Assembly: GCF_003967355.1 (NCBI RefSeq)
Contig: NZ_BIFH01000017.1
Coordinates: 124,001 to 188,000 of the forward strand
DNA: 64,000 nt
Direction: 5' to 3'
Origin: Embleya hyalina
GTDB taxonomy: Bacteria; Actinomycetota; Actinomycetes; Streptomycetales; Streptomycetaceae
Below, in pieces: positions 39,783 to 45,433 of this stretch. A program made the position numbers and the translations under genes. Each line of letters opens with the position of its first letter. Positions within the stretch are counted from its first letter, which is position 1. The notes below the pieces were generated by a model. It had not been told where the DNA came from. It saw nothing but the letters and a program-made list of their open reading frames with translations, and searched no databases.

Positions 39783-40535
39783 TCACGACCGCCCCGCCGG
39801 GAGGTCGATCAGCACGATCGGCGCCCCGGAGGGCCGGGCCGAGCCGCCCGCCGGCTCCACCGTCACCCCCACCCCCGACGCCCGGTCCAACCCCGACGCC
39901 AGCAGCGCCGTCCCCGGCCGGATCAGGCCGATCGACCGCATCCGGCCGTTGTCGCTGTACCACCCCTGGTACACCCGCGCGTCCGGCAGCGTCGGCAGCC
40001 CCGAGGTCAGCACCACGGCCCGGTCCAGCGCGGGCGAGGCGATCACCCGCACCGTCCCGCCACCACTGGCCGGCGCCGACCCCCCGACCGCGTCCGGCGC
40101 GGTGATCACCGCCTCGATCGCCGCGCCCCGCGCCCGCTGCTCGGCCACGGCCCGTTCGGCGTCCCGGGCGTCCCGGTACCGATCGATCGCCACCCCGCCC
40201 AGCGCGCCGATCGCCGCCAGGCAGGCCGCCAGTACCAGGACCACCACCCGCCGGGTCCGCCGCGGCTCCACCGGGGTGGGTGAGTGCCGATCGGGCAGCT
40301 CCGGCGGCAGCTGACGCACGGTCGCGATCTCGTCCATCACCCGCCGCTTCAGCTCCGGACCCGGCGACTCGGCGACCGCGACGGCCAGTCGTGCCGAGGT
40401 CGCCCGGAACTCGCGCACCTCCCGCGCGCACGCCGGACACTCGACCAAGTGGCCTTCGAACTCCCGCCGTTCGTCCTCGTCGAGGGCGTGCAGGGCGTAC
40501 GCGCCCGTCATCGTGTGCAGGTCGGCGGAGGTCAT
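39783..40535 (-). CDS. rskA: Anti-sigma-K factor RskA
   Basis: Membrane anti-sigma factor, 250 residues. The N-terminal anti-sigma domain carries a zinc-binding H-x3-C-x2-C (HLVECPAC, near residue 29). A single membrane helix (about 98-116, VVVLVLAACLAAIGALGGV) leads to an extracytoplasmic RskA domain with GRMRSIGLIRPGTALL near the end. It is predicted to hold the adjacent sigma factor until proteolysis. The ATG at 40535 overlaps the sigma stop (ATGA), so the two are made in fixed ratio. Confidence 0.92.
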   Translation of the reverse strand: MTSADLHTMTGAYALHALDEDERREFEGHLVECPACAREVREFRATSARLAVAVAESPGPELKRRVMDEIATVRQLPPELPDRHSPTPVEPRRTRRVVVLVLAACLAAIGALGGVAIDRYRDARDAERAVAEQRARGAAIEAVITAPDAVGGSAPASGGGTVRVIASPALDRAVVLTSGLPTLPDARVYQGWYSDNGRMRSIGLIRPGTALLASGLDRASGVGVTVEPAGGSARPSGAPIVLIDLPAGRS

Positions 40536-41116
40536 GCGCCCACTCCCAGGCAGTCGCGGAGGCGGATCAGACCGTCCCGCAGGCGGGTCTTGATCGTGCC
40601 CAGCGGTACGTCGAGCAGGCCGGCCACCTCGCGGTGCGTACAGCCCCGGTAGTAGGCCAGGGTCACGGACCGGCGCTGCACCTCGGTGAGGGTGCGCAGG
40701 CAGCGCCGTACCTGCTCGCGTTCCAGCCGCGCCTCGACCTCCTCGACCACCTCGTCGTACTCCGGCGTGTGCTCGCGGACCGCGGTGCGGTGCTCCCGAT
40801 CGGTGGCCGCCTGGGCCGAGCGCACCCGGTCGACGGCGCGACGGTGCGCCATGGTCAGGATCCAGGTCATCGCGCTGCCCCGGTCGGGGCGAAAACGCGC
40901 GGCGCCGCGCCAGACGTCGAGCAGCACCTCCTGGGCCACCTCCTCCGACTGCGCGGGATCGCGGACCACCCGCCGGGCGACGCCCAGCACCGCGCCGATC
41001 ACCGCGTCGTAGACGAACGAGAACGCCTCCTGGTCCCCCTGCGCGACACGGGCGAGCCGGTCCTCCAGCGTGGGGGCGTGCTCGCCCGGCGCGGCGAGGT
41101 GTACGACGGTCCTCAC
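40532..41116 (-). CDS. sigK: ECF RNA polymerase sigma factor SigK
   Basis: 194-residue extracytoplasmic-function sigma factor. Region 2 lies at about residues 30-98 (SEEVAQEVLLDVWRGAARF and SAMTWILTMAHRRAVDRVRS). Region 4 lies at about 140-190 (HREVAGLLDVPLGTIKTRLR). The GTG start at 41116 has GAGG upstream. The gene pair with RskA and the divergent oxidoreductase/fasciclin genes match the SigK group of actinobacteria. A CCAATC-N16-CCGAAT element at 41278-41305 is the likely autoregulated promoter. Confidence 0.92.
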   Translation of the reverse strand: MRTVVHLAAPGEHAPTLEDRLARVAQGDQEAFSFVYDAVIGAVLGVARRVVRDPAQSEEVAQEVLLDVWRGAARFRPDRGSAMTWILTMAHRRAVDRVRSAQAATDREHRTAVREHTPEYDEVVEEVEARLEREQVRRCLRTLTEVQRRSVTLAYYRGCTHREVAGLLDVPLGTIKTRLRDGLIRLRDCLGVGA

Positions 41117-41277
41117 CCGGCCTCACCCCCCTGCCCGAGCCCGTCCCGGCGGCGGTGTCCGTGCCGATCGTCCATGTCCCACTCCCACTCGCGCCGACCC
41201 CGAGGCGGACACCCGCGCCGTGCGTCCGGGCCCCGAGCGCTCCCGGCCCCATCACCGCACATGGCCATCCGACCCAT

Positions 41278-41305
41278 ATTCGGCGCCGCGGACCGCCCGG
41301 ATTGG
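41278..41305 (-). promoter_or_regulatory. Putative SigK promoter of sigK-rskA
   Basis: On the minus strand, CCAATC (41305-41300), 16 bases, then CCGAAT (41283-41278). The -10 CCGAAT and a CCATCC-like -35 are, as I recall, the elements used by mycobacterial SigK. The message would have a leader of about 155 bases before sigK. Confidence 0.7.
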
Positions 41306-41363
41306 TCCTCGCACCCATCGATTTCCGGACCGGCACGCCACCCCGCCCCATTCGAGTGAACGA

Positions 41364-41391
41364 CCAATCCGAATGGCCGACGGCACCGAAT
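41364..41391 (+). promoter_or_regulatory. Putative SigK promoter of the molybdopterin oxidoreductase gene
   Basis: On the plus strand, CCAATC (41364-41369), 16 bases, then CCGAAT (41386-41391), identical in both hexamers and spacing to the minus-strand element. The expected RNA start falls at about 41398-41400, on the GTG codon at 41400, which suggests a leaderless message. Confidence 0.7.
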
Positions 41392-41399
41392 GGCCCGAC

Positions 41400-42965
41400 G
41401 TGAAGGCAAACGAGACTCGCCGATGGCTCCGGGCCGGAGCAGGCGCGCTGAGCGGACTGCTGTCCGCCGGCGCGGCGTTGGCCGTCGCCGAGTTCGCCGC
41501 CGCGTTCCTCCGCCCCGAGGCGGGCCCCCTTCCGGCCGTCGGGGGAGCGGTGATCGACCGCACTCCCCCGGAGGTCAAGGACTGGGCGGTCCGCCAGTTC
41601 GGCACCGACGACAAACTCGTGTTGCGCACGGGGATCCTGGTGCTCCTGGGCCTGATCGCGATGGGCCTGGGCGTCCTGTCCCTGCGGCTGCGCCGTACCG
41701 CGATGGCCGGAGTGGTCGCGTTCGGCCTGGTCGGCGCGTACGCGGCGACGCATCGCGCCGGCGCCGGCGCCGTCGACGCGGTGCCCTCCCTGCTGGGTGG
41801 TGTGCTCGGCGCCGCCGCGCTGTGGTGGTCGACCGAGCCGGTGGTGCGAGTGCGCGCGGAGGATCGCGCGTTCGACCGCCGGGCGTTCCTGACCACCATC
41901 GCCGCATTGGCCGTGGGCTCGGCCGTGGCCGGCACCACCGGTCGGATCGTCGCCGACGGCAGACGGGCCTCGATCGCCGCCTTCCGCAACCGGATCCGGC
42001 TGCCCGTCGCGGCGGAACCGGCCGCACCTCTCCCCCCGGGCACCGACCTGCGCCTGCCCGGACTGTCCGCCTTCACCACCCCCAACGCCGACTTCTACCG
42101 CGTCGACACCGCCCTGGTGGTTCCCCGCGTCGACGTGCGGAACTGGTCGCTGCGCATCCACGGAAAGGGTGTCCGTACACCGCTGCGCTACTCCTACGAC
42201 GACCTGTTGCGCCGCCCGCTGATCGAGCGCGACCTCACCCTGACCTGCGTGTCGAACGAGGTCGGCGGGCCGTACACGGGCACCGCCCGCTGGCTCGGGG
42301 TACGCCTCGCCGACCTCTTGCGCGAGGCCGGTGTACGCCCGCCGAGCCGGGGCGGGCCCGCCGATCAACTGGTGTCCCGGTCCGTCGACGGGATGACCAT
42401 CGGCACCCCGGTCGAAGTCGCCATGGACGGGCGCGACGCGCTGCTCGCGGTGGGCATGAACGGCGAACCCCTGCCGTTCGAACACGGCTACCCGGTCCGG
42501 ATGGTGGTGCCCGGACTGTACGGCTACGTCTCCGCGTGCAAGTGGCTCGTCGACCTCGAACTGACCACGTTCGCCGGCTACGACGCCTACTGGGTCAAGC
42601 GCACCTGGGCCCGGGAGGCGCCGATCAAGACCCAGTCGCGCATCGACACGCCCAAGCCGTTCGCCCGCCTCCGGGTCGGCGTTCCGATACCGATCGCCGG
42701 CGTCGCCTGGGCCCAGCACCGGGGCGTGGCAGCGGTCGAGGTGAGCGTGGACGGCGGGCCGTGGCAGCGGGCCCGATCGGCCGAGGTCCCCGGACCCGAC
42801 ACCTGGCGGCAGTGGGTGTGGGAGTGGACCCCGACCCGGACCGGCTCACATCGGATCGAGGTCCGCGCGACCGACGCCGGCGGCGCGGTGCAGACCGACA
42901 AGCGGGTCGGCACGGTGCCGGACGGTGCCACCGGACGACATTCGGTGGTGGTCACCGTCGCCTGA
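41400..42965 (+). CDS. Membrane-anchored molybdopterin-dependent oxidoreductase (sulfite-oxidase family)
   Basis: About 521 residues. An N-terminal membrane part has several hydrophobic segments (residues about 10-160, ending near ALAVGSAVAGTTG). The sulfite-oxidase-type molybdopterin domain carries the Mo-ligand cysteine in LTLTCVSNEVGG, followed by GYPVRMVVPGLYGY. The C-terminal dimerisation domain ends RHSVVVTVA. Redox substrate unknown. I chose the GTG at 41400 because the SigK-like promoter places the RNA start there. An ATG at 41373 is in frame but would lie inside the promoter. It leads into the fasciclin gene 93 bp downstream. Confidence 0.88.
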   Translation: MKANETRRWLRAGAGALSGLLSAGAALAVAEFAAAFLRPEAGPLPAVGGAVIDRTPPEVKDWAVRQFGTDDKLVLRTGILVLLGLIAMGLGVLSLRLRRTAMAGVVAFGLVGAYAATHRAGAGAVDAVPSLLGGVLGAAALWWSTEPVVRVRAEDRAFDRRAFLTTIAALAVGSAVAGTTGRIVADGRRASIAAFRNRIRLPVAAEPAAPLPPGTDLRLPGLSAFTTPNADFYRVDTALVVPRVDVRNWSLRIHGKGVRTPLRYSYDDLLRRPLIERDLTLTCVSNEVGGPYTGTARWLGVRLADLLREAGVRPPSRGGPADQLVSRSVDGMTIGTPVEVAMDGRDALLAVGMNGEPLPFEHGYPVRMVVPGLYGYVSACKWLVDLELTTFAGYDAYWVKRTWAREAPIKTQSRIDTPKPFARLRVGVPIPIAGVAWAQHRGVAAVEVSVDGGPWQRARSAEVPGPDTWRQWVWEWTPTRTGSHRIEVRATDAGGAVQTDKRVGTVPDGATGRHSVVVTVA

Positions 42966-43058
42966 TCACCCCCTCGCCGCCTGTCGGCCCCCCGTTCCCG
43001 TCACCCGTTCGACGCCGCGGCGCATCCGTCGCGGTCGCCATCCGAAGGAAGTCTCGCC

Positions 43059-43721
43059 ATGACCGTCATCCGTCTCCCCCGCACCCTCGCCACGGTCGCG
43101 ACCGTGGCCGCGCTCGCCCTCCCGTTGGCCGCCTGCGGCAGCGACGACAAGAAGGACGACTCCACCGCGAAGACGGCGGCCTCCGCGCCGGCCGTCGCCC
43201 CTTCCGCGCCGGCCGGCGCCCCCGGCACCACCACCTCGGCCGCCGCGCCCTTCGGCGCCGGATGTGCCGCGGTCCCGGCCACCGGCGCGGGCAGCTTCAC
43301 CGGCATGGCCCAGGACCCGGTCGCCACCGCCGCCTCGCACAACCCCGTGTTGTCCACACTGGTGGCGGCGGTCAAGGCGGCCGGGCTCGTGGACACGCTC
43401 AACACCGCGCAGAACATCACGGTGTTCGCGCCGACCGACGACGCCTTCGCGAAGATCCCCAAGGACACCCTGGACAAGCTCCTCGCCGACAAGGACGCGC
43501 TGACCAAGGTGCTGACCTACCACGTGGTGGGACAACGCCTGGCCCCCGCCCGGTTGGCCGGCGGCTCGTTCGAGACGCTGGAGAAGCAGCCGCTGACCAC
43601 CAAGGGCTCGGGTGACGCGTACACCGTCAACGACACCTCGAAGGTGGTCTGCGGCAACGTGCCGACCGCGAACGCGACCGTGTACCTCGTGGACACGGTG
43701 TTGATGCCGCCGGCCTCCTGA
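43059..43721 (+). CDS. Fasciclin-domain (FAS1) lipoprotein
   Basis: 220 residues. The signal peptide ends in a lipobox (LPLAAC, cysteine near residue 26). A Ala/Pro/Ser-rich linker (about 30-70) leads to one FAS1 domain (about 85-218) with NITVFAPTDDAFAKIP, TYHVV and ATVYLVDTVLMPP. It resembles the mycobacterial antigens MPT70/MPT83, known SigK targets. ATG at 43059 with GAAGGAAG upstream. It probably shares a transcript with the oxidoreductase gene; only a weak SigK-like element precedes it. Confidence 0.92.
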   Translation: MTVIRLPRTLATVATVAALALPLAACGSDDKKDDSTAKTAASAPAVAPSAPAGAPGTTTSAAAPFGAGCAAVPATGAGSFTGMAQDPVATAASHNPVLSTLVAAVKAAGLVDTLNTAQNITVFAPTDDAFAKIPKDTLDKLLADKDALTKVLTYHVVGQRLAPARLAGGSFETLEKQPLTTKGSGDAYTVNDTSKVVCGNVPTANATVYLVDTVLMPPAS

Positions 43722-43750
43722 ACGATCCACGCGCCCGCGCCGGGCGAGCC

Positions 43751-43793
43751 GGTGGACGGTCGGCCCCCGTGCGTGGGGGCGCGACCGTCCACC
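43751..43793 (+). terminator. Hairpin terminator of the fasciclin gene
   Basis: A 12-bp outer stem (GGTGGACGGTCG) and a 6-bp inner stem (GCCCCC) are separated by one bulged base. It starts 29 bases after the stop. Confidence 0.8.
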
Positions 43794-43905
43794 CGGGTGC
43801 CGTACACCGTCGGGCCTCTCCCTCCCAGGCCCGGGGGTGCCGGCCGCCGCGCCGGTCGAAACCGCCCCCATCGGTCGGCCACATCGACCTCGCGCCCCGA
43901 GTCGT

Positions 43906-44788: not shown

Positions 44789-45433
44789 TTATCCGTCGGC
44801 CCATTCCCGTAAAGCGGGCGGATCGGACACCACGATGCTGCCGCGCCGGGTCTGCACCAGTGCCGATTCGTGCAGCACACGCAGCGCCCGGACCACCGAT
44901 TCCCGGGAGATGCCGATCGCGTCCGCGAGTTCCTGCTGGGTGGTCCGGATCACACACGGACCCTCGGCTTGGCCCAGCGTACGATCGGCCAGCGCCCGGG
45001 CCACCCGCCGCCCGGTGGCCAGCGCGCCGTACTCGACCCGCCAGCGGTCCGACTCGCGGATCCGCAACACCGTGCGGATCAACACGGCGTACACCAACGG
45101 GGCGTTCGTGCTCAGCAGTTCGCGAAAGCGGGTCAGCGGCACGAGTACCGCCACCACCGGGCCGAGGGCGACCACCGTCGCCGACCGGCCGCGCCCGTCG
45201 ATACACGCGAGTTCGCCCACCAGTTCACCCGGTCCGCGCACCGCGATGGTCACCGCCGACCCGTCCGAGGTGGCTCGTTCGATCTTGACCTGCCCGTGTT
45301 CGATCAGCACCACGTGGCGCGGGTGATCGCCCTCCATGAACAGCGCGTCACCCCGGTCGTAGCCCAACCGGCGGCCCGATTCCCGCAGCACGTCCCGGAG
45401 TTCCTTGGGCAACGCCCTGTCTTCCTCCGCCAC
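44789..45433 (-). CDS. Crp/Fnr-family transcriptional regulator
   Basis: 214 residues. The N-terminal cyclic-nucleotide-binding beta barrel (about 15-120) has the phosphate-binding region GPGELVGELACIDGRGRSATV. A dimer helix follows, then a winged helix-turn-helix (about 160-210, TTQQELADAIGISRESVVRALRVL). ATG at 45433. The 299 bp upstream form a divergent region with the TenA-like gene. A nucleotide-cyclase-like gene is next downstream. A Crp-type site lies before the atp operon; that this protein binds it is only a possibility. Confidence 0.9.
   Translation of the reverse strand: MAEEDRALPKELRDVLRESGRRLGYDRGDALFMEGDHPRHVVLIEHGQVKIERATSDGSAVTIAVRGPGELVGELACIDGRGRSATVVALGPVVAVLVPLTRFRELLSTNAPLVYAVLIRTVLRIRESDRWRVEYGALATGRRVARALADRTLGQAEGPCVIRTTQQELADAIGISRESVVRALRVLHESALVQTRRGSIVVSDPPALREWADG

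Follow-up and report, generated by a model that had tools for sequence, protein, structure and literature searches.

We found two SigK-type promoter sites back to back in Embleya hyalina, between the sigma factor and anti-sigma factor genes sigK-rskA and a membrane molybdopterin oxidoreductase gene (here mox). Most probably these are two divergent SigK promoters, with the rightward one fused to the start of mox and its message leaderless from about GTG 41400. The leaderless start, a side remark of the original prediction, is the strongest and most interesting part of the finding. Neither SigK regulons nor leaderless genes are novel in themselves; what appears new is that, in a single target gene, the start codon is tied to a promoter of the SigK type. 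Positions refer to the window, the whole 64,000-nucleotide stretch of DNA that was analysed (Table 1).

Table 1. Features around the sigK-mox intergenic region (window positions)
Feature	Position	Strand	Basis
rskA, anti-sigma factor	39783..40535	-	RskA_N and RskA_C domains, both above cut-offs
sigK, ECF sigma factor (194 aa, start GTG 41116)	40532..41116	-	Sigma70_r2 and r4 domains
SigK-type promoter into sigK-rskA (predicted)	41278..41305	-	exact match; -35 CCAATC 41305-41300, -10 CCGAAT 41283-41278
TCGAGTGA, right-hand part of a palindrome of 16 bases	41352..41359	+	column counts in relatives; left half not present in the window
SigK-type promoter into mox (predicted)	41364..41391	+	exact match; -35 CCAATC 41364-41369, -10 CCGAAT 41386-41391
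mox GTG start codon, predicted RNA 5' end at or within ~2 bases of 41400	41400..41402	+	in-frame GTG, -10 spacing
mox, membrane molybdopterin oxidoreductase, 521 aa from GTG 41400	41400..42965	+	membrane segments, Oxidored_molyb and Big_7 domains
Fasciclin-domain protein, ATG start	43059..43721	+	93 bases past mox; ribosome-binding-like AAGGA before ATG

Two SigK-type sites and the sigma factor beside them

The original prediction had placed one CCAATC-N16-CCGAAT element on each strand between sigK-rskA and mox, and both were found there. They are the only two exact matches in the window, where 0.01 would be expected by chance, and two copies were reached in 0 of 100 dinucleotide shuffles of the window. 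The -35 hexamers (41300-41305 and 41364-41369) point apart, with 58 bases between them. The elements had been called identical, which holds for both hexamers and for spacer length but not for the spacer sequences, which are unlike each other. As the original prediction said, the -10 CCGAAT agrees with the mycobacterial SigK consensus.

A search of the whole genome (12,054,215 bases, 78 contigs), which had also been proposed, returned these two exact matches and not hundreds; the reversed-pattern control gave 0. Widening the spacer to N15-N18 added two matches (N17 on contig C15 and N15 on contig C48). Allowing one mismatch at N16 added 17, with 1 in the reversed control. All 17 lie inside at least one open frame of at least 80 codons, which says little where GC content is so high. 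A GC3-rich frame starts within 250 bases downstream of three of them (L007, L012, L021). None was convincing on this check of open frames and GC3, and they were not accepted as further regulon members. Of the N17 and N15 sites, only the former, which may be a further member, has a GC3-rich frame downstream (L003, 1501-1529 on the minus strand), 98 bases off, which we take to encode an enolase-like protein. In this genome the proposed SigK regulon is essentially one locus.

It is very improbable that the pair arose by chance or is a short inverted repeat without function. An inverted repeat alone could yield a divergent arrangement, but the shuffles never gave two copies, the genome holds only these two, the spacers differ and the sites recur at matching places in relatives (see below).

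The best solved structure for the window's sigma factor was M. tuberculosis SigK (4nqw, E 6.5e-44; next 2.8e-20). Both positions aligned to SigK cysteines 133 and 183 are Cys in the window protein, with a chain offset of 17 for both; the role of this pair in SigK, and the ECF18/19 group names, are described in the available text of PMC7509140. Searching the genome with the SigK query gave 29 matches, the closest other one at 42% identity (E 1.2e-31). The structural match, the RskA partner and the distance to the next sigma factor support the naming of the adjacent factor as SigK, as does the return of the motif, in relatives, upstream of sigK, mox and fasciclin genes. Judged from these comparisons, both window sites appear to be promoters for the only close homologue of SigK that the genome encodes.

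It is distinctly unlikely that both sites are promoters for some other ECF sigma factor that the genome encodes, with SigK adjoining them by history only. The 29 matches do mean that other ECF-like factors are present, and in Streptomyces the motif also stands before RskA-like genes beside a more distant sigma factor (L068, L070, L072, L075, L080). Against this, the closest other match in the genome is just 42% identical, the motif accompanies sigK-rskA, mox and fasciclin through many rearrangements, and SigK sites are reported to be conserved among Actinobacteria (PMC7509140, in its available text, citing Veyrier 2008).

The predicted leader of sigK is about 150 bases long. An ATG 9 bases past the -10 opens a 51-codon frame in it (41113-41268, minus strand), whose stop overlaps the sigK GTG (GTGA). 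This frame is probably due to chance, since its ATG is ACG in L081, the nearest named relative (81% identity) among the best 80 of 339.

On the other side, no SigK-type site (at most one mismatch, N16) was found in the gap between mox and the fasciclin gene, and no terminator-like site in 41100-43800; the fasciclin gene is probably on the same transcript as mox. Within mox, past the first hydrophobic stretches, DRRAFLTTIAALAVG resembles a Tat signal by eye.

Spacing between the -10 element and the mox start

We compared the mox upstream regions of relatives. A mox scan of named genomes kept the best 80 of 339 relatives, and the sample is narrow for that reason, with 74 of the 80 titles naming Streptomyces. 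L146 is the locus of S. lavendulae CCM 3239, a laboratory strain. Together with the window these made 81 loci, of which L154, L156 and L159 were dropped (mox start missing), leaving 78. A site was called strict if it had at most one mismatch at N16 or was exact at N15 or N17. Strict sites precede mox in 55 of the 78 loci, window included, and among the 80 fetched mox loci, 54 carry a site with at most one mismatch in the matching position. Another 55 strict sites lie elsewhere in the same loci, before sigK, fasciclin, rskA or other genes.

Every one of the 55 strict mox loci has an in-frame GTG beyond the -10, at +7 in 47 and at +8 in 8, among them the window. At the same spacing GTG occurs in only 1 of the 55 other strict sites, and any of ATG, GTG or TTG in 4 (for GTG, Fisher p ~1e-30, only a guide as the loci are related). 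When the set was thinned to unlike N16 mox loci, GTG was still at +7 or +8 in 26/26. In a looser test on the 78 loci (at most 3 mismatches, N15-17, gap 6-9), 72 passed with gaps of 6-8, usually 7, and with 69 GTG and 3 ATG starts; letter-shuffled upstream regions passed in 5 of 1560 cases. Six loci failed (L110, L120, L127, L130, L157, L158). Among these, L157 has AAGGAG before an ATG further downstream, and in L158 mox comes after fasciclin. Expressed in window residues by tblastn alignment, the N-terminal start of mox takes 18 values, while the -10-to-start gap hardly varies; conservation of the protein's N-terminus alone therefore does not account for the fixed gap.

The sequence around the GTG was also compared. 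In all 55 strict loci a pyrimidine stands before it and an A after it. A pyrimidine before the G resembles the context in which transcripts of M. tuberculosis usually start (PMC3898074, available text). The other strict sites have pyrimidine-purine at +6/+7 in 41 of 55. A ribosome-binding-like sequence precedes the mox GTG in only 2 of the 55 strict loci. In 33 of them no other in-frame start was found up to window residue 20.

We regard it as unlikely that the promoters are SigK-type while a second promoter gives mox a longer message, read from ATG 41373 or a different start upstream, with the GTG belonging to a conserved stretch at the beginning of the transcript. ATG 41373 lies in the mox frame, which in the window is open upstream to 41070, so no stop stands against longer forms of mox; a pyrimidine-G also occurs at the same place in other sites. 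Counts of changes at codon positions 1/2/3 point both ways, 29/17/35 in 15 separate pairs (coding-like) and 136/186/156 in 70 overlapping pairs (against coding). But ATG 41373 lies inside the mox promoter and its counterpart, 27 bases before the GTG, exists in only 2 of the 55 loci (the window and L116) and not in L081. Moreover, in 26 of the 55 the frame read upstream meets a stop before any start codon, and no sigma-70-like promoter was found in 41100-43800.

Since the start gap is near-fixed across relatives and ATG 41373 is within the promoter and missing from L081, mox is probably leaderless from GTG 41400, while sigK and fasciclin in the window have predicted leaders. The original prediction of a leaderless GTG start, which would imply a protein shorter than that read from ATG 41373, is strongly supported by this comparison.

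Recurrence in relatives and in more distant families

Further hits had been expected to be few and to lie mostly near fasciclin or oxidoreductase genes; in relatives the motif was found again before sigK, mox or fasciclin genes. Where fasciclin is inverted or placed first (L118, L134, L148, L158), a site precedes fasciclin. The mox site is opposed by a second site even in several loci that have no sigK close by. The distance between opposed -35 starts (plus-site start minus minus-site end) is 59 bases in the window and in L137, 57 in L082, and 34-35 in L083 and L104.

Seven fetched loci of family f3, which belongs to the same order, have GTG at +7 as the start of sigK (L174-L179, L181), so the message of the sigma factor may be leaderless there too. 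The divergent mox in f3 starts with ATG at +7 in 4 loci (L175, L176, L177, L179). Family f19 has a start at +7 in 7 of 30 fetched mox loci (6 GTG, 1 ATG), and L169 adds another with GTG. Since some f3 and f19 mox genes have ATG at +7, GTG is usual and not obligatory. In another actinobacterial family (f6), 11 of 30 fetched sigK loci carry an N16 site with at most one mismatch, which in 6 of the 11 is CCCATCC-N15-CCGAAT (both raw counts).

Across the order, at least one CCAATC-N15-18-CCGAAT was found in 141 of 197 genomes, and CCAATCC-N15-CCGRAT with ATG, GTG or TTG at 7-8 in 86 of 197. Many of the fetched order-wide matches lead into mox or sigK. In eight of the fetched matches the triplet is a TTG ahead of an RskA-like gene, and the frame is very short in most (L185, L189-L191, L194-L196, L198), so a start-like triplet at +7/8 is not always a start. 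In these loci and in the Streptomyces loci L068, L070, L072, L075 and L080, the RskA-like gene behind the motif has a sigma factor nearby that shares only about 31-35% identity with SigK. An exact class-wide search with GTG at +7/8 gave 11 matches in 9 of 394 genomes, which is too strict to serve as a measure of spread; six of the 11 lead into mox (L163, L164, L165, L167, L169, L171) and five do not. Three loci (L166, L170, L187) have a SigK-type site with GTG at +7 and a short frame, followed by fasciclin. In these loci mox may have been lost, with its promoter and start left behind.

Proposed regulation and relation to known systems

By analogy with mycobacteria, RskA would hold SigK until an envelope signal frees it. 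RNA polymerase with freed SigK would then transcribe sigK-rskA to the left, a case of autoregulation in which the leader is about 150 bases long, and mox and fasciclin to the right. Transcription of mox would begin at or within about 2 bases of GTG 41400; with such a start there would be no leader, and the ribosome would enter at the 5' end. Fasciclin would be translated from its own ribosome-binding-like site on the mox message. As a conjecture, a redox link through the SigK cysteine pair would suit an oxidoreductase target.

The arrangement resembles the mycobacterial and actinobacterial SigK-RskA system, with its mpt83-sigK-rskA cassette, as described in the available text of PMC7509140. 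Shared with it are a SigK homologue with an adjacent RskA, a fasciclin target, SigK-type sites before genes and cysteines 133/183. It differs in that the main target here is a molybdopterin oxidoreductase with a predicted leaderless start, and in that both promoters stand back to back; the available text of that account makes no mention of leaderless genes or of an oxidoreductase. The mox start is also like other actinobacterial leaderless genes, which are common in the phylum (PMC3160421 and PMC3898074, available text), in having a -10 close before the start and no ribosome-binding sequence. Unlike those, the trait here follows one gene through many species, and the -10 is the ECF-type CCGAAT, whereas the signals in the available text of the survey PMC3160421 are TANNNT. 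No earlier report of a mox start locked to a SigK-type promoter was found in titles and abstract openings, a search with subscription literature mostly outside its scope.

The locus offers a natural test of why genes stay leaderless, as sigma factor, promoter type and locus are the same and one gene is locked while its neighbours are not. We suggest only tentatively, and with more doubt than conviction, that selection has kept one SigK target leaderless across actinobacterial orders while co-regulated partners keep leaders, the start codon being in effect part of the promoter. If this is true, the envelope signal sets both the transcription of mox and its mode of ribosome entry. For Streptomyces and its kin, the comparison further indicates where proteins of this oxidoreductase family probably begin. 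It suggests a very small, self-contained SigK regulon in which an envelope signal would be linked to a fasciclin protein as well as to a molybdenum enzyme.

Directly upstream of the mox -35, many relatives (L081-L160) carry a 16-base palindrome, approximately TCAYYCGATCGRGTGA, centred about 47 bases before the presumed mox RNA start. Column counts for the remaining SigK-type sites do not show it. It might be the site for a regulator, and none could be named from 30 fetched palindrome loci. Matches occurred in 30 of 60 genomes (reversed control 0). Among the 30 fetched loci, one is a mox promoter (L251) and eight share a 93-residue frame, which by eye we take to resemble acylphosphatase. About 1 kb past the fasciclin gene of the window, a Crp-type regulator (cNMP_binding and HTH_Crp_2) is encoded at 44789-45433 on the minus strand.
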